DNA from: Methanomassiliicoccus sp.
GTDB taxonomy: Archaea; Thermoplasmatota; Thermoplasmata; Methanomassiliicoccales; Methanomassiliicoccaceae
NCBI GenBank assembly: GCA_018262895.1
Contig: JADFDJ010000010.1
Coordinates: 81,199 to 114,150 of the forward strand
Length of the DNA stretch: 32,952 bases
Reading direction: 5' to 3'
Within the stretch, counting starts at the first letter, position 1, and each line of letters starts with the position of its first letter. Shown here one piece after another: positions 1-10,942 of the stretch. Below the pieces are notes generated by a model. That model was not told where the DNA came from. It did not search any database and saw only the letters and a list, made by a program, of their open reading frames with translations. The position numbers and the translations under genes are program-made.

Positions 1-1183
1 CCCCCGCGGCCGATGCTCCATCCGCGAACGCCCTCGCCTTCCCTCGATCACGGATGCACAGGGCGATGGTCTGCACCTTCCGGGTTATGTGCGCTATCAC
101 GTCGTTGAGGTCATCCACCTCGCGCACGAACACGCACCTGCCCTGTACCGGCTCCGGCAGGCCCTCCTCCCTGTCAAGAAGTATGGTCCATCCCAGGTCA
201 TGGGGCATGATCAGGTCCCGGTCCTCGGACAGCAGGTAGTAACCGCGGGCACTGATGACCTCCAGGCACTGCCTCTCCGGCATCTGGGTACGCCTGAGCT
301 TCATGGGCAGGCCCTCGAAGCCCCTGCTCAGCGCCTCCGCGAACTTACGTGCGGAGACCGCTCCCTTCTCCAGCACTACCACCTGGGGCGAGGAGCAGGC
401 GGTCTGATCGAAAAGCACCACGTCCTGCGCCAACTTCTTCAGGACGTCCTCCAATCCTTTACCTGCCAGGAATGCCTGGTCGAAGACCGCCATCGAGTAC
501 TTCGGCCCGAAGATGATGGTGTCGCACGTTTCCTTCTGCGGCAGGGCAGCGACCGCGCGGACCGCCTCTCCGCTCCCCCATGCGATCTTGACGTCCGCGG
601 CCAGGGACAGCATCGTGTTGTCCGCGGCGCTGGAGGAATCGAAGGATATCATGCACACCGAGCGCACTATGGTCGCCCCCTCGACCCTCCTGCCCTGGCG
701 CTCGATAACCATCCCCTTCAGTTTTTCCAGCACGGCGGTGAGGACCGGTCGGTTGATGTCCGACACCTTCAGTATGGAGGCGTTCTTGGAGAGAACGGCC
801 AGCATGAGGGAGAAGAAGGACATCACGGGGACGTTGTTGGGAAGCCAGTGGCATGAGGTCCCTCGGGGCTGGCACCTCATCTCCGTTCCAGACCAGACGC
901 CGAGGAACTGGTCCGCCCGGTGCCGGTCCCCGTAGTTCAGGTCGCATAACCTCTCCAGGTTATCCGCCCTCAGCCACAGGCTGATGTATGTGGCCCCGTC
1001 CGTCCGGCTCAGCTCCGGGTCCTTTATGAGCTGCTTGCCCAGATTAGCTAGCAGGGCGATGATGTCGTCCATCGAGAGAGCGCATAGCTCCTCCCTCCTG
1101 CGGTCCAGGAGCGCCACAACCGGGCCCAGGTCCGAGATCTCCTGGTCCACGGTATCGCCGTCCAGCAAGAAGCATCTGGCCAT
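1..1183 (-). CDS. luxC: LuxC-like acyl-CoA/acyl-protein reductase, 3' end cut by window edge
   Basis: Acyl reductase of the LuxC family, which reduces an activated acyl group (acyl-CoA or acyl-enzyme) to an aldehyde with NADPH. I translated this frame by hand: ATG at 1183, open for 394 codons to the left edge, so roughly the last 80-90 residues of a typical LuxC are missing. The signature is the segment DQTACSSPQ, with candidate nucleophile Cys263 (codon 397-395), which matches the LuxC active-site region. A GGTGAG ribosome site lies just before the ATG. The gene starts 4 bases after the luxE-like gene ends, so the two are translationally linked as in luxCDABE-type systems. No luciferase genes are visible. 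The aldehyde product here is more likely used in glycan or lipid chemistry than in light emission (inference). The family call is strong; the natural substrate is unknown. Confidence 0.85.
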   Translation of the reverse strand, partial: MARCFLLDGDTVDQEISDLGPVVALLDRRREELCALSMDDIIALLANLGKQLIKDPELSRTDGATYISLWLRADNLERLCDLNYGDRHRADQFLGVWSGTEMRCQPRGTSCHWLPNNVPVMSFFSLMLAVLSKNASILKVSDINRPVLTAVLEKLKGMVIERQGRRVEGATIVRSVCMISFDSSSAADNTMLSLAADVKIAWGSGEAVRAVAALPQKETCDTIIFGPKYSMAVFDQAFLAGKGLEDVLKKLAQDVVLFDQTACSSPQVVVLEKGAVSARKFAEALSRGFEGLPMKLRRTQMPERQCLEVISARGYYLLSEDRDLIMPHDLGWTILLDREEGLPEPVQGRCVFVREVDDLNDVIAHITRKVQTIALCIRDRGKARAFADGASAAG

Positions 1184-1187
1184 GCTC

Positions 1188-2288
1188 TCACCGCTCCCTG
1201 AACGTATCCCCACAGCCCCGTACCTCGGCCTGCTCCGCTCTACCCTCCACTACGAAGTACCGCCCCTTCCGACCGCAGGGACAGTCATCGGTGCCCAGCA
1301 ACCGGCCCACGTCCTCCGTGAGCACGGCCTGGCTGTAGTAGCTGTCACCCAGCACGCTCATGACCTCGATAAGGCCCCGCTCCCCCACACGGCATTCCTC
1401 CATCGTCCGCACATCTCGGATGATGACATGGCCGAAGACCGGTACATGCTTATGGCCCAGCTCGCAATCGACGAAGATTACCCCCGTCTGCTCCGCCATG
1501 CCGTAAAAGTCCCTTATCTCTGCCGGGGGGCAGCCCAGCAGACCTGCCAGGCGCTGAGAGAACTCCTCCCTGCTGACCTTCTGGTCCTTCAGTTTCTTCC
1601 ATCCGCCTCCGTGGAACACCACCGCCCGGGGAAGGTCCAGCTTAAGCTGCCGCTCCTCCATCTCCTTGCAGAACACCGACCATATGATGAACGTGAAGCC
1701 GAAGACGTATACCTCCTGGGTCTCGGCGAGGCGGCGCGCCTTTTCCAGCGCCTCCATGTCCAGGACCAGCCTGCCGTCCTCCTCCCTGAGCAGATAAACG
1801 ATGTCCTTGGCGTAGATCGACAGGCCACGGACCCCGGCCCCCCTGGCGGTAAGCTCGCGAGCGGGGCTGTTCACCCCCGGATGGTCAATGACAAGCATCA
1901 CCCTTCTCTTGTCCCCCAGGTATGCGCCCAGGATGCTCCTCAGCGCCTTGGTCTGGTTGGATGCGGTGGTCTTGTTGAGCGGCACCACGCTGGCATGTTG
2001 AGCGGTGGTGCCGCTGGAGCGTAGCACCCTGGTCACCTCCGACCTATCCACGGTGGAGAGGTCGAAGCTCTTGAACATGCGGACCGGGACCGCAGGAACC
2101 TCGTGCAGCTCTTGCATCCCCTCGGGCTCGATGCCCAGCTTGGAGTACATCGAGCGAATGTGGGGGTTCATGCACGCCTTCCGGGCCCCTTGCCGTATCA
2201 GCGGTAGGAGCAGCTCCTTCCTCCCCTGCTCCCCCTGGGAGTACGGGGGCATCGTCAGAAGAGCCTCCAGCCCCTTCTCATCGGACAT
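1188..2288 (-). CDS. luxE: LuxE-like acyl-protein synthetase
   Basis: Family of LuxE, the acyl-protein synthetase that activates a carboxylic acid with ATP and passes the acyl group to a cysteine for reduction by LuxC. The 366 residues contain an adenylation loop RSSGTTAQ (90-97), FHGGGWKK (225-232), FYGMAEQ (261-267) and a C-terminal acidic turn TEDVGRL (324-330). Length is close to the bacterial enzymes. From memory, LuxE uses a cysteine near its C terminus; Cys359, eight residues from the end, is the best candidate here, and a CPCG motif (336-339) is also present. The ATG at 2288 follows a strong GGAGGGTGA ribosome site. The gene overlaps the end of the upstream ligase by 11 bases and is followed after 4 bases by the LuxC homologue. 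Linkage to ACP suggests that the acyl donor or acceptor may be acyl-ACP. Confidence 0.88.
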   Translation of the reverse strand: MSDEKGLEALLTMPPYSQGEQGRKELLLPLIRQGARKACMNPHIRSMYSKLGIEPEGMQELHEVPAVPVRMFKSFDLSTVDRSEVTRVLRSSGTTAQHASVVPLNKTTASNQTKALRSILGAYLGDKRRVMLVIDHPGVNSPARELTARGAGVRGLSIYAKDIVYLLREEDGRLVLDMEALEKARRLAETQEVYVFGFTFIIWSVFCKEMEERQLKLDLPRAVVFHGGGWKKLKDQKVSREEFSQRLAGLLGCPPAEIRDFYGMAEQTGVIFVDCELGHKHVPVFGHVIIRDVRTMEECRVGERGLIEVMSVLGDSYYSQAVLTEDVGRLLGTDDCPCGRKGRYFVVEGRAEQAEVRGCGDTFRER

Positions 2289-3756
2289 TCAGCTCACCCT
2301 CCGCCAGCATCTGCCTCAGTCTCACCTTGTCGATCTTGTTGGAGGAGTTCAGGGGCATCTCCTCCAGGAACACCACGAAGCTTGGGTTCTTGTAGGAGGG
2401 GAGCGACCTACGGCACTCCCTGAAGATCGTCGTTCTAACGGCCTCCGCCTCTGCTCCGTCCCTCCGGCGCACCACCGCCACTATGGCCTCACCCAAGATA
2501 TCGTCCGGCGTGCTCACCACTGCTACTGTGTCCACGCCTTCCATGGAGGCGATGAGGTTCTCTATCTCGTAGGGAGACACGCGATATCCAGCGCATTTTA
2601 TTATGTCCTTGGCCCGCCCCACGACGTAGATGTAGCCGTCCTCGTCCACGGTCGCCAGGTCACCGGTGTGGTACTTCCCGTCCTTCAGCACCGCCCTCGT
2701 TCCCTCTTCGTCCCCGTAGTAGCCCCTCATGATGTTGTCGCCGGTGGCCACGATCTCTCCGGTCTCCCCCGGCCTCACCGGACAGCCTTCCTCCCCCAAG
2801 ACCTCCAGGTGCACCCCGGGGATCCCTTTGCCGATGGATGCCATCCTGGTCCTGACCATCTCCGGAGGGAGGTAGGACATCCTTGCTGTGGCCTCGGTGG
2901 CCCCATACATTACGAAGAACCTGATATCAGGCAGGGAGTCGACGATCATCTGGATGTACCTCGGTTCCAGCTTCCCACCGGCCTGGGTCATGTAGCGCAG
3001 GCTGGAGAACCTACGCTGCAGCAGGTCGGAGCGGTTGATTAGTATCTGGTAGGTGCTGGGAACGCCTGCGAAGCCTGTGCACTGGTGCCTCTCGATCTCA
3101 TCCAGGACCGCTCCCAGGAAGATGCTGTTGCTGATGGTTAAGCTCCCCCCGACCCGCAGGTGGGTGTGAAGGAGGGACGCCCCGTAACAGTAGTAGAACG
3201 GCAGCACCACCATCATGCGGTCCCGCGATGTCAGCTCCAGGTACTCGATGATGGAGGTGGTGTTGGCTATGAGATTGCCGTGGGTGATCATCACCCCCTT
3301 CTTGGTGCCGGTGCTCCCGGAGGTGAAGACCACCGCCGCCAGATCGTCACGTCCAACCTGGCGGCGGTGGTCCTCCACGTCCTCCTCGGGCATATCGGAC
3401 TCGGTGATCAGGGGCAGGCCGGCCACGGCCTTAGCGGAGAGGCGCTGCTGCATGAACGCACCCACCGGCCGGCAGAACGACATCAGGGCGGCCAGCTCCT
3501 CCTTGCCGACCCTGGTCTCCACCAGCAGGGGTATGTTGCCGCTCCTCATGAGGGAAAGGTACGAGACCACGAAGAATACGCTGTTGTCCGCCAGAAGTAG
3601 GAATTCCTTGCCCGAGCCGTAGCGTTTGGAGATCCACTTAGAGGTCCTCTCCACCCGTTCGTACAGCTCGCGGTGGCTCACCCTCTCCTTCACACCGGTG
3701 ATGAAGCATTCCTCGCTTTCACAGCAGCTCGCGAAAAGGAACTCGACGAAGTTCAT
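2278..3756 (-). CDS. AMP-forming acyl-CoA/acyl-ACP ligase
   Basis: ANL-superfamily adenylate-forming ligase of 492 residues. It should activate a carboxylic acid as acyl-AMP and load it on CoA or on the phosphopantetheine of the neighbouring ACP. Motifs in order: FTSGSTGTKKGVMITHG (144-160, phosphate loop), MYGATEAT (283-290), YHTGDLATVDEDGYIYVVGR (362-381, containing the ATP-ribose aspartate), the hinge region following it, and NSSNKIDK (470-477) with the catalytic lysine of the mobile C-terminal domain. No carrier or transferase domain is fused. It starts 20 bases after the ACP stop and its end overlaps luxE by 11 bases. That position makes ACP a plausible acceptor (inference). The acid it activates cannot be read from the sequence. 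Confidence 0.9.
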   Translation of the reverse strand: MNFVEFLFASCCESEECFITGVKERVSHRELYERVERTSKWISKRYGSGKEFLLLADNSVFFVVSYLSLMRSGNIPLLVETRVGKEELAALMSFCRPVGAFMQQRLSAKAVAGLPLITESDMPEEDVEDHRRQVGRDDLAAVVFTSGSTGTKKGVMITHGNLIANTTSIIEYLELTSRDRMMVVLPFYYCYGASLLHTHLRVGGSLTISNSIFLGAVLDEIERHQCTGFAGVPSTYQILINRSDLLQRRFSSLRYMTQAGGKLEPRYIQMIVDSLPDIRFFVMYGATEATARMSYLPPEMVRTRMASIGKGIPGVHLEVLGEEGCPVRPGETGEIVATGDNIMRGYYGDEEGTRAVLKDGKYHTGDLATVDEDGYIYVVGRAKDIIKCAGYRVSPYEIENLIASMEGVDTVAVVSTPDDILGEAIVAVVRRRDGAEAEAVRTTIFRECRRSLPSYKNPSFVVFLEEMPLNSSNKIDKVRLRQMLAEGELNVR

Positions 3757-3776
3757 CTGCGCTCACATCGGAAATT

Positions 3777-4016
3777 TCATCCTATGTACCTGCCGACGAT
3801 GTCCTTCGCTTTGCCGAAGTTCTCCATGCCTATGATGTCATCGACCTCCAGCTCGATAGAGAACGCCTCCTCGATACGGGAGACTAATTTGAGGTGGGTC
3901 AAGGAGTCCCAAGCCTCAATCTCGTTGTACGCGGTCGAGTCGACCAGTTCCTCTTCAGAAATACTAAGCTCCTCGCGGAAGATCGCTCTCATTATCTTGA
4001 TTTGGTCTTCGTTCAT
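3777..4016 (-). CDS. acpP: Acyl carrier protein
   Basis: Small acidic four-helix carrier protein of 79 residues. The phosphopantetheine attachment motif WDSLTHL carries Ser38 (counted from the chosen start), followed by the helix-II pattern KLVSRIEEAF typical of ACPs. I chose the ATG at 4016 because AGAAGG lies 9 bases before it. An ATG at 4025 in the same frame has that site immediately adjacent, which is too close. Its 5' end overlaps the acpS reading frame by 53 bases, so the carrier and the enzyme that activates it are made together. Most archaea have no ACP-based fatty acid synthesis, so a dedicated ACP with its own AcpS is notable. No ketosynthase is present here, so it probably carries a ready-made acid loaded by the adjoining ligase. 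Confidence 0.9.
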   Translation of the reverse strand: MNEDQIKIMRAIFREELSISEEELVDSTAYNEIEAWDSLTHLKLVSRIEEAFSIELEVDDIIGMENFGKAKDIVGRYIG

Positions 4017-4386
4017 AGGCATCATCCTTCTGGACCATCATGGCGAACGCGACGGCCTGCTCCTGGCCGTGGGAGATACTTAATAATATTTGGTAATTGC
4101 CAGCTAGGTCACAGGAAATGAGAGCCTTGGGTGCCCCCTGATCATCCCCTCTCAACTCGATGTCCCTGAAAAAAATCGTGGACCCCGGCCTTCCAGACCT
4201 CACCGCCTTTATGATCGCCTCCTTAGCGGCGAAGCGGCCTGCCAATGTGGGGGCCGGCTCCCTACGGCGGAAGATATCCTCAACCTCCTTCTCGTTGAGG
4301 AACTGAGCAACCACCTTGCTGTCCGGCCCCAACCCCCGGAACCTGGCTACCTCCACAATATCCACCCCTATCCCCATTACGTTCAC
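3964..4386 (-). CDS. acpS: Holo-[acyl-carrier-protein] synthase
   Basis: AcpS transfers 4'-phosphopantetheine from CoA to the serine of apo-ACP. The 140-residue product has the family motifs GIGVDIVEVARF (5-16, metal ligand Asp9), GRFAAKEAIIKA (50-61, Glu56 and Lys60) and SISHGQEQAVAFAM (103-116). The start is a GTG at 4386, chosen because GGAGGT at 4400-4395 lies 8 bases upstream. An in-frame ATG at 4377 would be 17 bases from that site. The domain ends near residue 120. The last 20 residues are an extension that overlaps the ACP gene, so the tail may exist only because of that overlap. It is 52 bases downstream of the LpxD-like gene and is the expected partner of the ACP. Confidence 0.9.
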   Translation of the reverse strand: MNVMGIGVDIVEVARFRGLGPDSKVVAQFLNEKEVEDIFRRREPAPTLAGRFAAKEAIIKAVRSGRPGSTIFFRDIELRGDDQGAPKALISCDLAGNYQILLSISHGQEQAVAFAMMVQKDDAYERRPNQDNESDLPRGA

Positions 4387-4438
4387 GGTGCTCTACCTCC
4401 GGTCACCACATCGACGTTCATCCCCTTCCCCCCCAGGC

Positions 4439-5350
4439 CTAGAGCTTCCTAATCGTGGGTCGGGCGGGATTGCCGGCCACGAATGTCCCGGGCTCCACGT
4501 CCCGAACCACCACCGAGCCCAGGGCCACCATGGCATCGTCCCCGATGCTGACGCCGGTGTTGATAGTGCATGACGGAGCGAGCCAACACCGGTCCCCTAT
4601 CCTAACGCTGCCCGCTATCTGGGCATGGGCGATGATAAGGCAGTCCTCTCCCACCTGCACATTGTGCGCTATGTGCACCAGGTTATCGATCTTGGTGCCG
4701 CGGCCGATGATGGTATCCACGAGCGCACCCCTGGCGATGCAGGCATTGCTGCCTATCTCCACATCATCCTCTATCACCACTCCACCTATCTGAGGGAACT
4801 TTTCCACCCTGCCCTCGGGGTCGCGGCTGTAGCCGAAACCGTCGGTCCCGATGACCGCTCCCGCATGAACGGTCACTCGACGCCCGATCCGGACATTGTC
4901 GTATATGGTCACAGACCCCAGGAGCCGGCTTCCGCCACCTATGGTCACATCATCGCCGATGGTGCAGAAGGGGCCGACGAAAGCGTCGGGAGATATGCTG
5001 ACGTTCTGACCGATGACAGCGGTATGGTGCACTCCGGTGGACCTCTCTTTGGCAAAGTATCTCCGGAGAACACGGGAGAAAGCCAGCCGGGGATCGTCGA
5101 CAAGTATGAATATACCGTCCTCTCGGTGGAGGCAGGTCTCCTCGTGATCCTTCAGGGTGATGACCACGCCGGCCCTGGTCCGGCAGAGCAGCGATCTTCC
5201 CCTGTCCCCCTGCTTATTGCAGAAGGTGATGGAGCGCTCGTCGGCGACATCGATGGGGAGCGCTCTCTCCACGATAGTTTCCCTCTCTCCCACGACCTTG
5301 TGCTCGCATCCGAGAGCATCCAGTATATCCTTGAGTTGGAGTTGAGGCAT
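4439..5350 (-). CDS. LpxD-like acyl-ACP-dependent sugar N-acyltransferase
   Basis: Left-handed beta-helix acyltransferase resembling LpxD, which in Gram-negative lipid A synthesis moves an acyl chain from acyl-ACP to an amino group on a UDP-sugar. The N-terminal region (about 1-95) fits the LpxD uridine-binding domain. Hexapeptide repeats run from about 105 to 290, with [10 protein letters not shown] near 168-177 and the LpxD-type sequence [13 protein letters not shown], whose His229 corresponds to the catalytic histidine of bacterial LpxD. The C-terminal end is short and ends VAGNPAR, more like sugar acetyltransferases, so total length (303) is below LpxD's usual ~340. I prefer the ATG at 5350, because LpxD proteins begin this way; a GTG at 5380 would add ten residues. 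Position before acpS-ACP supports ACP dependence. Donor chain and acceptor sugar are unknown. Confidence 0.82.
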
Positions 5351-5424
5351 GATATCAGGCCTTGAGGGCTCGGCATCCACGGACCTAGCTCACTGGATGA
5401 GGCCCAAGATAAGAACTCCCCTCG

Positions 5425-5467: not shown

Positions 5468-6601
5468 CTAGGGGGCCGACCGTCTTTGGGGCGACAGTAA
5501 TCGTTCGTAGGCACTCAGGAGCCTCTGGCCCATGACCCCCCAGTTGTACTCCCTTTCCGCGGCCTCCCGGCCCTTCCGCCCCATCTCCATCCTTGTGCTA
5601 TGGTCCCTCAGGACCTCCACGGCCGCCCTGAAACGTTCCTCGCTCCAGTCGAAGGTCATGCCGCACCCGTTGGCCTCAACGATGTCCCCGGTCAAGGTCC
5701 CCCGGGATGCCAGTATGGGGAGGCCGAACGCCATCCCCTCCCCCATCTTGTTGGCGATACCGGTGCGGTAGTTCTCGTTCGCAGGATCGGCCAGTATCAG
5801 CACCACGTCGGCCTTCGTGTACTGCTCCAGCAGTTCCGTGAACGGCAGGTGCCCCAGGTATTCCACGTTAGGATGCAACTGAGAGGCTCTTTCCACAGCA
5901 TCCTTCAGGCGACCGGAGCCGGCTATCCTGAGGATGCAGCCATCGATCTTGGACGCGGCCTCCATGCTCTCCTCTAGGTATCGCATGGGCTCGAAGGTGA
6001 CAGGGTTGAAGAGCACGATGGGCACGTGGTCCTCGTGCACCCTCATCTTCGATGGGGGAGGGAGCTCGATGACGTTCATCACCACCAGGACGTCATCCCG
6101 TGAATGCTTCCCAAGCCCATCTGCCATGACGTCATTGATGGTCACCACCAGGTCCGCCCTCGGTACCAGCATGTCCTCGAACCTCTGCACCGCCCTGGAG
6201 ATCGACCTGGGGACATCGAGCGCGATCATCTCCGCGTAGCGCTCATGGGCGTCGAAGACCAGGGGTATCCCCCTGAGGCGGGATATGAGAATGCCTATTG
6301 GCAAGGTGTCGAGGTCGTGGGCGTGGACCACATCAGGCCTGCTGCGTCTAGCCTCTCCGATGGAGCGCAGCAAGAACAGGGGGTAGTTCAGGGCCAGGGC
6401 GATCTGTCCTCCCACCTTGCGGGTGCGGAGCCGATGGACATGGACCCCTTCCATAACCTCACGGAGGGGTCGGGCCCAGGTCCGGTCCCAAGCAGCCACC
6501 ACCACATCGTAACCGCCCTGAAGGAGGGCTCTGGCCTCCTTATGGACACGGGGATCTGGCCGGTACTCGTTGGTAACCAGCATAAGAACGGAGCGGCCCA
6601 T
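5468..6601 (-). CDS. GT4-family glycosyltransferase
   Basis: GT-B fold, retaining glycosyltransferase of family 4, 377 residues from the ATG at 6601. The N-terminal half has LMLVTNEYRPDPRV (6-19), DVVHAHDLDTLPIG (90-103) and DAHERY (117-122). The C-terminal half has the sugar-nucleotide region NKMGEGMAFGLPILAS (284-299), whose Glu-rich loop matches the EX7E-type motif. An upstream in-frame GTG at 6643 would overlap the dehydrogenase gene. The ATG at 6601 has GGGGGA just before it and is preferred. It follows the dehydrogenase by 10 bases and probably transfers the amino sugar made by the preceding three enzymes to a lipid carrier or growing glycan. Sugar specificity cannot be read. Confidence 0.88.
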   Translation of the reverse strand: MGRSVLMLVTNEYRPDPRVHKEARALLQGGYDVVVAAWDRTWARPLREVMEGVHVHRLRTRKVGGQIALALNYPLFLLRSIGEARRSRPDVVHAHDLDTLPIGILISRLRGIPLVFDAHERYAEMIALDVPRSISRAVQRFEDMLVPRADLVVTINDVMADGLGKHSRDDVLVVMNVIELPPPSKMRVHEDHVPIVLFNPVTFEPMRYLEESMEAASKIDGCILRIAGSGRLKDAVERASQLHPNVEYLGHLPFTELLEQYTKADVVLILADPANENYRTGIANKMGEGMAFGLPILASRGTLTGDIVEANGCGMTFDWSEERFRAAVEVLRDHSTRMEMGRKGREAAEREYNWGVMGQRLLSAYERLLSPQRRSAP

Positions 6602-6611
6602 GTTCCCCCGC

Positions 6612-7565
6612 TCAAACGTTCGTTGCGACGGTCCTGCCCTCACGCAGGGATTCCAGGCTCTTTTCCAGCATCACCACGGTCTTCACCCCTATAACCCCGG
6701 AGTTCCTTGTCTCCGCGAAGGGATCGCCTATGGATTGCAGGAAGTGTACCAGCTCCGTTCGGATGGTATTGTTGCGCTCTATGCCCAGCTTGTATGTGTA
6801 CCCGCTCTCATATATGGTGACGTCCTGAGCCACGGCGTCGATGAGGGCAGAGCGGTTCTCCCCGATTATCTCGATCTGCCTGACCTTGCGCGGGGCGAGC
6901 CAATTGAGGGTGGCATGCGCGATCACCCCTGAAGGCATCTCGCAGGAAATGTACGCCGCCTCCTCCAGCTCCTTACGACGATAGGGCTTTCCGGTGCAGG
7001 TGATCTTCTCCGGCCAGTCATCGAAGATGAAATTGACCATGTCAAAGAAGTGAGGCGCCAGGTCGACTATGACGTCCCGGTCCGCGAAAGGCTGCTCCAG
7101 GTTCATCCATACGAAGTTCATGAGGTATGGCTTCCCGAAGAACTTCTGGGAGATCAGCCTCCGCATCTCCAAGAGGGCGTTGTTGAAGCGGTAGATGTGC
7201 CCTACGGACAAGGTAAGGTTCGATTCGCTGGCAAGGTCCACCAGCGCTTGTCCTTCCTGGGAGGATAGGGTGAGGGGCTTCTCCACGAGGACGTGCTTTC
7301 CAGCCTCCAGGGCGTCCCTGCAGGCCTGATAATGAAGACCGTTGGGAAGGCAGATGTTGACCGCCACGACATCCTCGTCCTTCAGGACCTCCCTGTAATC
7401 ATGGTAGAGGCCCTGGACCCCGTAACGGTCACGGCAGAACTCCAGGTTCGTGTCCATCTGGTCGGAGACCGCCTTCACGCGCACCCCCGGTATGTTGGTG
7501 TACTCGTCGACGATCTTCTTTCCCCAATAGCCGACCCCAAGAACGGCCACGTCGAAGCGCCTCAT
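6612..7565 (-). CDS. Gfo/Idh/MocA dehydrogenase (sugar-nucleotide 3-oxidation, WbpB/WlbA-like)
   Basis: NAD(P)-dependent oxidoreductase of the Gfo/Idh/MocA family, 317 residues. The Rossmann loop is GVGYWG (10-15). The EKP motif (95-97) supplies the lysine that binds cofactor and substrate. DLAPHFFD (168-175) contains the usual catalytic aspartate-histidine pair. Its 5' end overlaps the aminotransferase gene by 4 bases (ATGA). In bacterial WbpB/WbpE or GnnA/GnnB systems such a pair oxidises carbon 3 of UDP-GlcNAc or its uronic acid and then aminates it. This neighbourhood (dehydrogenase, DegT enzyme, hexapeptide acetyltransferase) fits that pathway well. Family is certain; the exact UDP-sugar is inferred. 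Confidence 0.9.
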   Translation of the reverse strand: MRRFDVAVLGVGYWGKKIVDEYTNIPGVRVKAVSDQMDTNLEFCRDRYGVQGLYHDYREVLKDEDVVAVNICLPNGLHYQACRDALEAGKHVLVEKPLTLSSQEGQALVDLASESNLTLSVGHIYRFNNALLEMRRLISQKFFGKPYLMNFVWMNLEQPFADRDVIVDLAPHFFDMVNFIFDDWPEKITCTGKPYRRKELEEAAYISCEMPSGVIAHATLNWLAPRKVRQIEIIGENRSALIDAVAQDVTIYESGYTYKLGIERNNTIRTELVHFLQSIGDPFAETRNSGVIGVKTVVMLEKSLESLREGRTVATNV

Positions 7566-8656
7566 TCCTTTCCTCCATAGTGCTCGATGATGCTGTCGCA
7601 GACCCGGTCCACGTCCTCATCTGTCATGGCTGGGAAGATGGGCAGGGAGAGAAGCCTTCCGGATTGCCTTTCGCTCTCCGGGTACGACCCTTGGCTGAAC
7701 CCGAAGGCATCGCGGTAAACGGGCTGCAGGTGTATGGGTACGGGGTAGTGGACACCGGTCTCTATGCCATTCGCGAGGAGATGCTTGGCAAGCTCGTCCC
7801 GGTCATCGGTCTGCACCACGAACAGATGGAACACAGGGGTTATGTCACGGCCTCCCATGGGTGGCAGCCGGACCTCCTCCACGTCCTTGAGCCTCTCCGA
7901 GTAACGGCGGGCAATGCCCCTCCTCCTCTCGTTCCAATCGTTTAGGTGCCTCAGCTGCACGCGGCCGACGGCGGCGTTGGCGGTGTTGAGGCGGGAGGTG
8001 AAGCCGAACACGTCGTGTATGTACCGGGAAGTCCGTCCGCAGTCACGCAGCTTCCGGATGTCGTCGGCCAACCTCTTGTCGTTGGTAGTGACCATCCCCC
8101 CGTCGCCGCCCACGGTCATGTTCTTGGTGGGGTAGAAGGAGAAGCAGCCCACGTCCCCGATGGCCCCCACCTTCCTCCCCCTGTAGGTCGCGCCGTGGGC
8201 CTGGCAGGCGTCCTCGATGATCTTGACCTTTTCCCCCGCGGCCTCACGGATCTCGTCCATCTGTGATGGGTAACCGAAAAGGTGGACCGGCATGACCGCC
8301 GCGGTGTCCTTGCCCACCCTTATCTCCCTGGGGTCCAGGTTATAGTCCTGAGGTGAGGAGTCGGCGAACACCGGGGTCGCGCCGGCATGCACGATGGCAT
8401 TGGCGGTGGCGATGAAGGAGAGGGGGGTGGTGACGACCTCCTTGCCTCTAACATTGAGGGCCAGCAGGGATAATATCAGTGCGTCGGTCCCGGACGATAC
8501 GGAGATGGCATAATCTGTTCCAATAAAGCGCGCGAACTCGTCCTCGAACTTGAAAACGCTCTCGCCAAGCACCATGCGCTCGTTGCGCAGGGCGTCGGAC
8601 ATGGCCTCTATCATCTCTTCGGTCACGGCAGGCCGTGATGTTGGGATCTTGTTCAT
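7562..8656 (-). CDS. DegT/DnrJ/EryC1/StrS-family sugar aminotransferase (WbpE-like)
   Basis: PLP-dependent aminotransferase of the DegT family, 364 residues, which aminates a keto-sugar nucleotide, usually with glutamate. Visible motifs: SSGTDAL (54-60, phosphate binding), EDACQAHGA (148-156, Asp contacting the pyridine nitrogen) and FSFYPTKNMTVGGDGG (172-187), with Lys178 forming the Schiff base. The ACQAHGA and KNMTVGGDGG signatures are those of 3-aminotransferases such as WbpE/WlbC and GnnB rather than of 4-aminotransferases, as far as I recall. It lies 4 bases after the acetyltransferase gene and overlaps the dehydrogenase by 4 bases. The three genes form one functional block for a 3-amino-3-deoxy sugar. 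Confidence 0.92.
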   Translation of the reverse strand: MNKIPTSRPAVTEEMIEAMSDALRNERMVLGESVFKFEDEFARFIGTDYAISVSSGTDALILSLLALNVRGKEVVTTPLSFIATANAIVHAGATPVFADSSPQDYNLDPREIRVGKDTAAVMPVHLFGYPSQMDEIREAAGEKVKIIEDACQAHGATYRGRKVGAIGDVGCFSFYPTKNMTVGGDGGMVTTNDKRLADDIRKLRDCGRTSRYIHDVFGFTSRLNTANAAVGRVQLRHLNDWNERRRGIARRYSERLKDVEEVRLPPMGGRDITPVFHLFVVQTDDRDELAKHLLANGIETGVHYPVPIHLQPVYRDAFGFSQGSYPESERQSGRLLSLPIFPAMTDEDVDRVCDSIIEHYGGKE

Positions 8657-8660
8657 GAGC

Positions 8661-9113
8661 TCACTTCCTCTCGATCTGATGTGCAGGATTTCCTACCACC
8701 AAGGCCCCCGGGGGAACGTCGCGGGTCACGACCGCACCAGCGCCCACCAGGGCGTTCTCTCCGATGGTCACCCCGCAGACTATCACGGCCCCGGCGCCTA
8801 TGGAGGCGCCCTTCTTGACGGTGGTAGGCACAATGTCCCAGTCCCCGACCGCCTTGGGGTAGAGGTCGTTGGTGAAGGTCACGCGAGGTCCGATGAAGAC
8901 CTCGTCCTCGATGGTTACTCCAGTTGGAATGAAGGCAAAAGCCTCTATCTTGCAGCGGTCCCCGATGGCGACGTTGCGCTGTATCTCGACATAAGCTGCT
9001 ATCTTGCAATCGCGGCCTATCCTGCAACCGTAAAGGTTGACGTAGTCGCGTACCACTGTTCCCTCCCCGATCTCACAATCGACGATCGAGTGATACTTGG
9101 CCAAGAGCTTCAT
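8661..9113 (-). CDS. Hexapeptide-repeat N-acetyltransferase (WbpD/WlbB-like)
   Basis: Left-handed beta-helix acetyltransferase of 150 residues, built of hexapeptide repeats from the first residues to VVTRDVPPGALVVGNPA near the C terminus. The segment FIGPRVTFTNDLYPKA (73-88) resembles WbpD/WlbB, which acetylate the 3-amino group of UDP-2-acetamido-3-amino sugars with acetyl-CoA. The protein is somewhat shorter than WbpD (~190), because it lacks a C-terminal tail. It is the first gene of the minus-strand run, with an AT-rich promoter element just upstream. Together with the LpxD-like gene the run therefore encodes two beta-helix acyltransferases, which could serve two different amino groups or two sugars. 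Confidence 0.86.
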   Translation of the reverse strand: MKLLAKYHSIVDCEIGEGTVVRDYVNLYGCRIGRDCKIAAYVEIQRNVAIGDRCKIEAFAFIPTGVTIEDEVFIGPRVTFTNDLYPKAVGDWDIVPTTVKKGASIGAGAVIVCGVTIGENALVGAGAVVTRDVPPGALVVGNPAHQIERK

Positions 9114-9493: not shown

Positions 9494-10942
9494 TCAGACC
9501 CGAATGTCGTGGCTGTTCTTGTCCCCTCTCCCGATTCCCTTGTATACGAAACCTAGGTCAATGTATCTGTCTGGTGCCACCACGTTGCGGCCATCGATGA
9601 TGACAGGGTTTTTCTGACCGGTCAGCTCTTTGATCCTTGCTGGATCAAGATCGAAATAATTAGAATGGGCAGTCATGACTGCGATGCAATCCGCCCCTCT
9701 TACGACTTCATCTATATCCCTGTACAGTTCTACATCCGGGTAACTTAGCACGTGCGGATCGTGAACGGTGACTTTGGCCCCCGCATCCAGCAACAGATCC
9801 CGATATGCCTCTGAGGGAGGATTTCGCGCATCGTCCGAATCATTGATGAAAGCCCAGCCCAGCATAGCAACATTCGATCCCTTTAGGCTCTTGCCGATGC
9901 GGTCCAGCGCGCTCACCGTCAGGTTAAACATATGTCTTGGCATAAAGTCGTTAACCTTTCTGGCAAGAACGTATATCGAATCCGCTCCTTCAGGATAGTC
10001 TAGATTGCTACCACGGACCTTCACGCCTCGTTCTAGGTGGTATGTGTCCTTTGTCAAGCAGTGGCCACCTACGCCAGCTCCTGGCCATAGAATAGCACGT
10101 GTGATTCCTTCGCCCTTCAAGCTGTCGATGCCTGCTCTCACATCATACACATTCACGCCCATTGCTTCGCAATATAGGGCCAGCTGATTTACGGCTGCGA
10201 TCTGGAGGTCCCTGAATGTGTTCTCAGCGGTTTTTGTAACCTCCGCTGCGGTGGCCGTCATCTTAATGATCTTTCCTTTCGTCAGAACGGGAGCATAAAG
10301 CTCGACAGCTCGCTGAGTGCTTGCATCATCGATGCCTCCAACAATCCTATCGTGTTCCTGGATATTCTTTAAGAGACGCCCTACCATGACCCTCTCGGGT
10401 GCATGTGCCAATGCAAAGTCCTCCCCTGCGACGAGCCCTGATTCCTCTTCAAGGATCTGTCGAGCCATTCCGTCAGTGGTACCGGGGGTGATGGTTGATT
10501 CCAGAACTACCAACATACCTGGTCGTAAATATTTTCCTGCATTACGAATGCCCTCGTTCAGAGCCCCGAAATCGGGCTCGAGATCCTTTGGGTTCGCAAA
10601 GGGCGTCTGGATGGCCAAGGCCACTGCATCCATCTCTGAGATCTTCGAAAAGTCAGATGTGCACTTGAATTTCTCGGCCTTCACAACTTTAGATAACAGC
10701 TCCTCAAGTCCTGGCTCATTGCCCTTCAAGGGACATTCTCCCTTGTTCAGCATGTCAATCTTATATCCAGAGGAACTGGATGCTCGTTGAAACCCTAATA
10801 CAAGATCAAATTTTTGGACATCGGCGAAAAGGGCTGCGGCAGGAATTCCCACATATCCCATACCTATCACGCCTATCTTCCTGATGGGGCCCCTCTTCAT
10901 CAACAACGACTGCAGTTTATCCGTCATAACAAACCAACTCAT
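9494..10942 (-). CDS. UDP-GlcNAc/UDP-ManNAc 6-dehydrogenase (WbpA/WecC-like)
   Basis: Nucleotide-sugar dehydrogenase of the UDP-glucose/GDP-mannose family, 482 residues. It oxidises carbon 6 of a UDP-N-acetylhexosamine to the uronic acid in two NAD-dependent steps. Motifs: GVIGMGYVGIP (24-34, NAD binding), ESTITPGTTD (148-157), AAEVTKTAENTFRD (232-245) and GAGVGGHCLTKDT (288-300), with catalytic Cys295. The first ATG (10942) sits only about 19 bases after the centre of a TATA box. The ATG at 10927 (residue 6) fits a short-leader transcript better, so the true start is uncertain. GC content is visibly lower than in neighbouring genes (29 and 31 of 60 in two sampled lines, against 39 of 60 in a line of the DegT gene), which suggests later acquisition. 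It would supply the uronic acid for a UDP-GlcNAc3NAcA-type sugar. Confidence 0.92.
   Translation of the reverse strand: MSWFVMTDKLQSLLMKRGPIRKIGVIGMGYVGIPAAALFADVQKFDLVLGFQRASSSSGYKIDMLNKGECPLKGNEPGLEELLSKVVKAEKFKCTSDFSKISEMDAVALAIQTPFANPKDLEPDFGALNEGIRNAGKYLRPGMLVVLESTITPGTTDGMARQILEEESGLVAGEDFALAHAPERVMVGRLLKNIQEHDRIVGGIDDASTQRAVELYAPVLTKGKIIKMTATAAEVTKTAENTFRDLQIAAVNQLALYCEAMGVNVYDVRAGIDSLKGEGITRAILWPGAGVGGHCLTKDTYHLERGVKVRGSNLDYPEGADSIYVLARKVNDFMPRHMFNLTVSALDRIGKSLKGSNVAMLGWAFINDSDDARNPPSEAYRDLLLDAGAKVTVHDPHVLSYPDVELYRDIDEVVRGADCIAVMTAHSNYFDLDPARIKELTGQKNPVIIDGRNVVAPDRYIDLGFVYKGIGRGDKNSHDIRV

Follow-up and report, generated by a model that had tools for sequence, protein, structure and literature searches.

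In Vibrio cholerae O1, the genes VC0248-VC0252 (rfbKLMNO / wbe) have been assigned to tetronate biosynthesis on the perosamine nitrogen (PMC3441752). VC0250 is an iron-containing alcohol dehydrogenase (Fe-ADH), VC0251 is an acyl protein synthase/acyl-CoA reductase (PMC9201469), and RfbL is stated to activate 2,4-dihydroxybutanoate (PMC12208996). The acyl cassette described here lies at the start of a 32,952-nucleotide stretch of DNA from the archaeon Methanomassiliicoccus sp. (the whole analysed stretch is referred to as the window). Like it, the V. cholerae set lies in a glycan locus and combines a carrier protein and an AMP-ligase with a LuxE/LuxC enzyme, an acyltransferase and an alcohol dehydrogenase; the V. 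cholerae set yields an N-acyl substituent on an amino sugar (PMC3441752, PMC9201469, PMC12208996). The flagellin glycosylation islands of Aeromonas group II and Enterobacteriaceae contain the same five enzyme types as the archaeal cassette, namely acyl carrier protein (ACP), FabG, AMP-ligase, LuxE and LuxC (PMC7874193, PMC4875605). In the gammaproteobacterial loci that we inspected, the gene order was similar to that of the window cassette, and the ligase motif was largely common to both. Kinship with cassettes of bacterial glycan loci, which an initial annotation of the window had proposed, is supported (PMC4875605, PMC7874193).

It appears highly probable that the cassette is dedicated to the decoration of a glycan by way of acyl-ACP, and its role in a glycan has good support from the gene context. 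For a more specific route, by which an amino sugar in a surface glycan would receive a short, probably hydroxylated acyl group, we see an even chance; the identity of the acid, the order of the steps and the acceptor in this route are what we infer. Genes in the window were assigned from open reading frames and from Pfam or curated-family (TIGR, NF) profile scores. Positions marked C1 are in contig numbering of the host genome (G000, a Methanomassiliicoccales archaeon), and other positions are in window numbering. The six minus-strand genes of the initial annotation (LpxD-like, AcpS, ACP, ligase, LuxE and LuxC) were all found where it had placed them, and two further genes lie just past the window start.

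2..1213, minus strand: LuxC-type acyl reductase (PF05893, 2.6e-53), with its 3' end about 110 nt past the window start
1188..2288, minus strand: LuxE-type acyl-protein synthetase (PF04443, 1.6e-50)
2278..3756, minus strand: AMP-forming acyl-ACP/CoA ligase (PF00501, 4.2e-63)
3777..4025, minus strand: ACP with the phosphopantetheine serine in a DSL motif (PF00550, 2.5e-06)
3964..4386, minus strand: AcpS-type phosphopantetheinyl transferase (PPTase; PF01648, 1.1e-13)
4439..5380, minus strand: LpxD-like hexapeptide N-acyltransferase (TIGR01853, 254.7 bits; matches to LpxD in the PDB)
G000:C1:80347-81087, minus strand: FabG-like short-chain dehydrogenase/reductase (SDR), beyond LuxC (TIGR01830, 281.6 bits)
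G000:C1:79688-80320, plus strand: PIG-L deacetylase, divergent

Several adjoining frames overlap in an operon-like manner. The AcpS and ACP frames do so over about 60 nt (window 3964-4025), and a similar overlap was seen in the loci L003 and L004.

The host genome is 99.66% complete. Genome searches identified the cassette ACP as its single PP-binding protein and AcpS as its single PF01648 match. A genome-wide search returned no match to PF00109, the ketosynthase family expected for type II fatty acid synthesis. Since the genome encodes a single ACP and a single PPTase and lacks a ketosynthase, the ACP serves this cassette only. The acyl-ACP system is self-contained and the use of a ready-made acid is supported, both as initially annotated, and acyl-carrier genes are thereby documented in an archaeon that lacks a ketosynthase. 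A second LuxC match (PF05893, 110 bits) is present on contig 25 of the same genome (L084:8697-11482). Its neighbours are an NAD-dependent epimerase-like gene and a 446-aa protein that matched no Pfam family at 1e-5; this locus is a separate system.

Motif alignments indicated that the catalytic motifs of these cassette enzymes are intact. LuxC retains the active-site cysteine motif FDQTACSSP, LuxE the SSGTT loop and the C-terminal RGC cysteine, and the ligase the TSGSTG motif together with the C-terminal lysine motif. The presumed acyl-pocket motif of the ligase, LPFYYCYG.SLLHTHLR, is kept in most archaeal cassettes and largely common to the bacterial ones. Judged from this pocket region, loading of an amino acid by the ligase seems unlikely. 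The catalytic motifs of ACP and AcpS were read straight from the sequence and are likewise intact. The LpxD-like protein passes the cut-off of the curated LpxD family (TIGR01853, 254.7 versus 242.5 bits) and keeps, as do its relatives, the catalytic histidine of the IAHNV motif. The C-terminal helical extension of true LpxD, present in the aligned L185 protein, is absent from it.

The window LuxE and LuxC resemble an RfbN-type enzyme of an O-antigen locus more closely than a lux-operon pair. In the bacterial O-antigen locus L160, LuxE and LuxC are fused into a single protein of 825 aa (RfbN-type), against which the window proteins scored 203 and 180 bits, respectively, compared with about 62 and 51 bits against the lux-operon pair. 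Scores for the bioluminescence fatty-acid reductase families were not reached (NF052251, 79 of 750 bits; NF052244, 67 of 550 bits). On these family scores, together with the weak match to the lux-operon pair, a true lux-type fatty acid reductase was rejected. Of the components of an RfbKLMNO-type (tetronate) set, ACP, AMP-ligase, LuxE and LuxC genes occur together in the window, and the LpxD-like gene (4439-5380) represents the hexapeptide acyltransferase. In the cassette of the host genome, an SDR takes the place of the Fe-ADH of such a set.

The two dehydrogenase types appear to replace each other. The order ACP-ligase-FeADH-LuxE-LuxC, with the enzymes described for tetronate in V. cholerae, is common to the O-antigen locus L160 and two Asgard loci, L017 and L019. 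Among 105 loci with both LuxE and the ligase, 69 contained the SDR, 4 the Fe-ADH and none both (Fisher p = 0.012, for loci that are related). We read SDR and Fe-ADH as probable alternates for the reduction of an aldehyde. Since the cassette holds two acid activators, a dicarboxylic acid may be reduced at one end and loaded onto ACP at the other. The RfbN-like LuxE/LuxC, the alternation of SDR and Fe-ADH, the tetronate precedent and the two acid activators are among our reasons for favouring the hydroxy-acid route.

In this route, AcpS would convert ACP into its active form. LuxE would adenylate a small dicarboxylic acid of the malate, succinate or malonate type at one of its carboxylates and hand the thioester to LuxC, which would reduce it to the semialdehyde. 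The adjoining FabG-like SDR would then reduce the aldehyde to the alcohol, a step that the Fe-ADH would perform in the Asgard and RfbN-type cassettes. The ligase would place the remaining carboxylate on ACP; alternatively, all steps from LuxE activation to the ligase might take place on ACP. Finally, the LpxD-like enzyme would acylate a sugar nitrogen with the hydroxyacyl group; this nitrogen could either be freed by the PIG-L deacetylase, following an LpxC/LpxD-like logic, or be made by the DegT enzyme encoded upstream. Apart from these genes, split transketolase genes adjoin the cassette in L007, L009, L210, L212, L213, L216 and many bacterial loci, and their products could lengthen an aldehyde by a two-carbon unit.

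Placement of the cassette in an amino-sugar operon, another element of the initial annotation, was borne out by the genes upstream of it, which follow in the order glycosyltransferase, Gfo/Idh, DegT, acetyltransferase and UDP-sugar dehydrogenase.

5468..6643, minus strand: GT4-type glycosyltransferase (PF13579/PF13439)
6612..7565, minus strand: Gfo/Idh/MocA dehydrogenase, presumably for C3 oxidation of a UDP-HexNAc-type sugar (PF01408, 7.8e-28; NF040723, 175 bits, under its cut-off)
7562..8656, minus strand: DegT-type sugar aminotransferase (PF01041, 4.1e-116)
8661..9113, minus strand: left-handed beta-helix (hexapeptide) transferase, probably a sugar N-acetyltransferase (PF00132, 3.5e-29; TIGR03570, 83 bits, under its cut-off)
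9494..10942, minus strand: UDP-sugar dehydrogenase (open reading frame; adjoins the operon in L122 and L123), a probable supplier of UDP-HexNAc uronic acid, judging from sequence and context

In about 11 archaeal loci, the cassette operon includes hexapeptide transferases, compared with about 10 such proteins in the entire host genome; this context is not proof, as glycan loci are generally rich in such genes. Deacetylase genes adjoin the cassette in the host genus and in L005, L006 and L211. They are also found next to LpxD-like genes in L126 (a weak match, 2e-4) and its homologue L127, where lux genes are absent. This adjacency is consistent with loss of an acetyl group prior to N-acylation, with the DegT-derived amine as the alternative acceptor. 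L127 additionally carries AMP-ligase and AcpS genes in one stretch with the LpxD-like gene, without LuxE/LuxC (L127:14767-18503).

The names LpxD, LuxE, LuxC and FabG all derive from fatty-acid enzymes, and both the initial annotation and the papers on flagellin glycosylation islands, which put forward a 'liposugar' (PMC4875605, PMC7874193), point to attachment of a medium- or long-chain fatty acid that would yield a lipid-modified glycan or glycolipid. We consider such a product improbable: the host genome lacks a ketosynthase, LuxE/LuxC are nearer to the RfbN-type enzyme than to the lux-operon pair, and the LpxD-like protein is devoid of the C-terminal helices, so that this part of the initial annotation did not find support. 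Similarly low is the probability that ligase, ACP and LuxE/LuxC constitute a carboxylic acid reductase line that delivers a free aldehyde or alcohol into the glycan, with no acyl amide being formed. LuxE/LuxC do reduce acids to aldehydes, and transketolase pairs adjoin many of the loci, but the operon holds an acyltransferase with an intact catalytic histidine, and the cassette repeatedly has hexapeptide transferases as neighbours. Unlikely, but a little less so, is a scheme in which ligase and ACP load a 3-oxo acid (e.g. acetoacetate), the SDR converts it into 3-hydroxyacyl-ACP for transfer by the LpxD-like enzyme, and LuxE/LuxC provide an aldehyde for another step. True LpxD uses 3-hydroxyacyl-ACP, the SDR is FabG-like, and the split transketolases beside many cassettes are potential users of an aldehyde. 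Against this scheme, Fe-ADH replaces the SDR in the Asgard and RfbN-type loci, which is a better match to aldehyde reduction, and LuxE and LuxC stand beside ligase and ACP in nearly all loci.

The hydroxy-acid route has to contend with several points as well. The SDR score is only slightly under the FabG cut-off (281.6 versus 297.75 bits, TIGR01830), and an enzyme of this kind could act on 3-oxoacyl-ACP. The test for mutual exclusion of SDR and Fe-ADH is not independent, since the loci are kin, and neither enzyme was seen in about 30% of the loci scored. The ligase motif MPLSHSFGMGRMRTT of the RfbN-type locus L160 is unlike the archaeal motif, so that the acid need not be tetronate. Moreover, L160 has the enzyme types of the V. 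cholerae tetronate set, yet it is not established as V. cholerae. The amine that the DegT enzyme makes may already be taken by the other hexapeptide transferase of the operon.

More tentatively, a step of deacetylation and reacylation in archaeal glycans, LpxC/LpxD-like and fed with an ACP-bound short hydroxy-acid from the LuxE/LuxC/SDR line, might represent a chemistry that also explains the 'liposugar' genes of the bacterial flagellin islands and the 102 Da group of Aeromonas AH-3. The mass of a dihydroxybutyryl group, 102.03 Da, is compatible with that 102 Da group, but is not proof. The Aeromonas sugar of 376.14 Da fits a dihydroxybutyryl form (376.15 Da), weakly, as isomeric formulae fit too and nothing ties the sugar to the cassette. 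With the hydroxy-acid route, a gene set found widely in the glycan loci of bacteria and archaea, and hitherto taken for fatty-acid or lipid genes, gains a product that can be tested. Should the route prove correct, genes of flagellin, O-antigen and archaeal glycan loci would have to be re-annotated, and the cassette would become a marker for hydroxyacyl-amide sugars.

The gene order is not peculiar to one assembly. It was identical in independent assemblies of the same genus (L003/L125, L004/L124, L122 and L123), which rules out the chimeric contig that the initial annotation had named as a possible refutation. In several of these assemblies, the cassette is near SMC/ScpA/ScpB-type genes. The closest LuxE matches were in PtaU1.Bin030 (95%) and MXMAG1 (75%), and within the Methanomassiliicoccales strong cassette-type LuxE matches were confined to 5 of the 7 genomes of the host genus. 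Relatives with 50-55% identity occur in Methanohalophilus, Methanoculleus, Methanogenium, Methanoregula, Methanocalculus and one Thermoplasmata genome, and those with 44-50% identity in Nanohaloarchaea, Asgard archaea, Omnitrophota and Clostridium. The cultured Methanogenium marinum DSM 15558 and Methanohalophilus profundi are among the carriers of the cassette. Of the 232 genomes of the class to which Methanogenium belongs, 15 had LuxE matches beyond 1e-25, and most of these loci have the order AcpS-ACP-ligase-LuxE-LuxC-SDR. The cassette core is not limited to the host: it recurs in many methanogens and Asgard archaea.

In quick trees of LuxE and LuxC, which carried long-branch warnings, ten archaeal rows grouped together in a single clade (SH-aLRT 99 and 98), and Omnitrophota adjoined it. 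The clade comprises the window genus, Methanomicrobia-type methanogens, Methanohalophilus and one Thermoplasmata genome, and most gut and gammaproteobacterial sequences are separate from it. Transfer of the cassette between the domains, in one direction or the other, is likely. Searching the literature for archaeal ACP and transfer yielded nothing useful, and phage and plasmid searches contributed little. Two further arrangements were noted. In another genus of the host's family (G016), LuxE is followed by LuxC fused to an AMP-binding domain (L128:8644-12286; similar in L181 and L182), which is a separate kind of LuxE/LuxC. L015 and L016 contain near-identical LuxE in metagenome-assembled genomes assigned to Calditrichaceae and Deltaproteobacteria, which suggests recent transfer or a binning error.

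Compared with the V. cholerae tetronate set, the window has separate LuxE and LuxC, an SDR rather than an Fe-ADH, a dedicated AcpS, an LpxD-like acyltransferase and an archaeal host; the V. cholerae set was compared by its published description, and the contrast in ligase motif is drawn from L160. The set described for the flagellin islands contains no LpxD-like protein and no AcpS, whereas the window has both, and the gammaproteobacterial and gut LuxE/LuxC form their own group in the trees, apart from those of the window. The luxC and luxE products of the bacterial lux operon belong to the same two families as the window pair and share its catalytic cysteines, but the similarity is weak and the partner genes differ. 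LpxC and LpxD of lipid A synthesis provide a parallel in the deacetylase gene next to a gene for an LpxD-family N-acyltransferase; in the archaeal loci, however, the deacetylases are of the PIG-L/NodB type, the LpxD-like protein lacks the C-terminal helices, and the genome is without a ketosynthase. The cassette is a variant of a bacterial type that is already known, and its core is common to many methanogens and bacteria.

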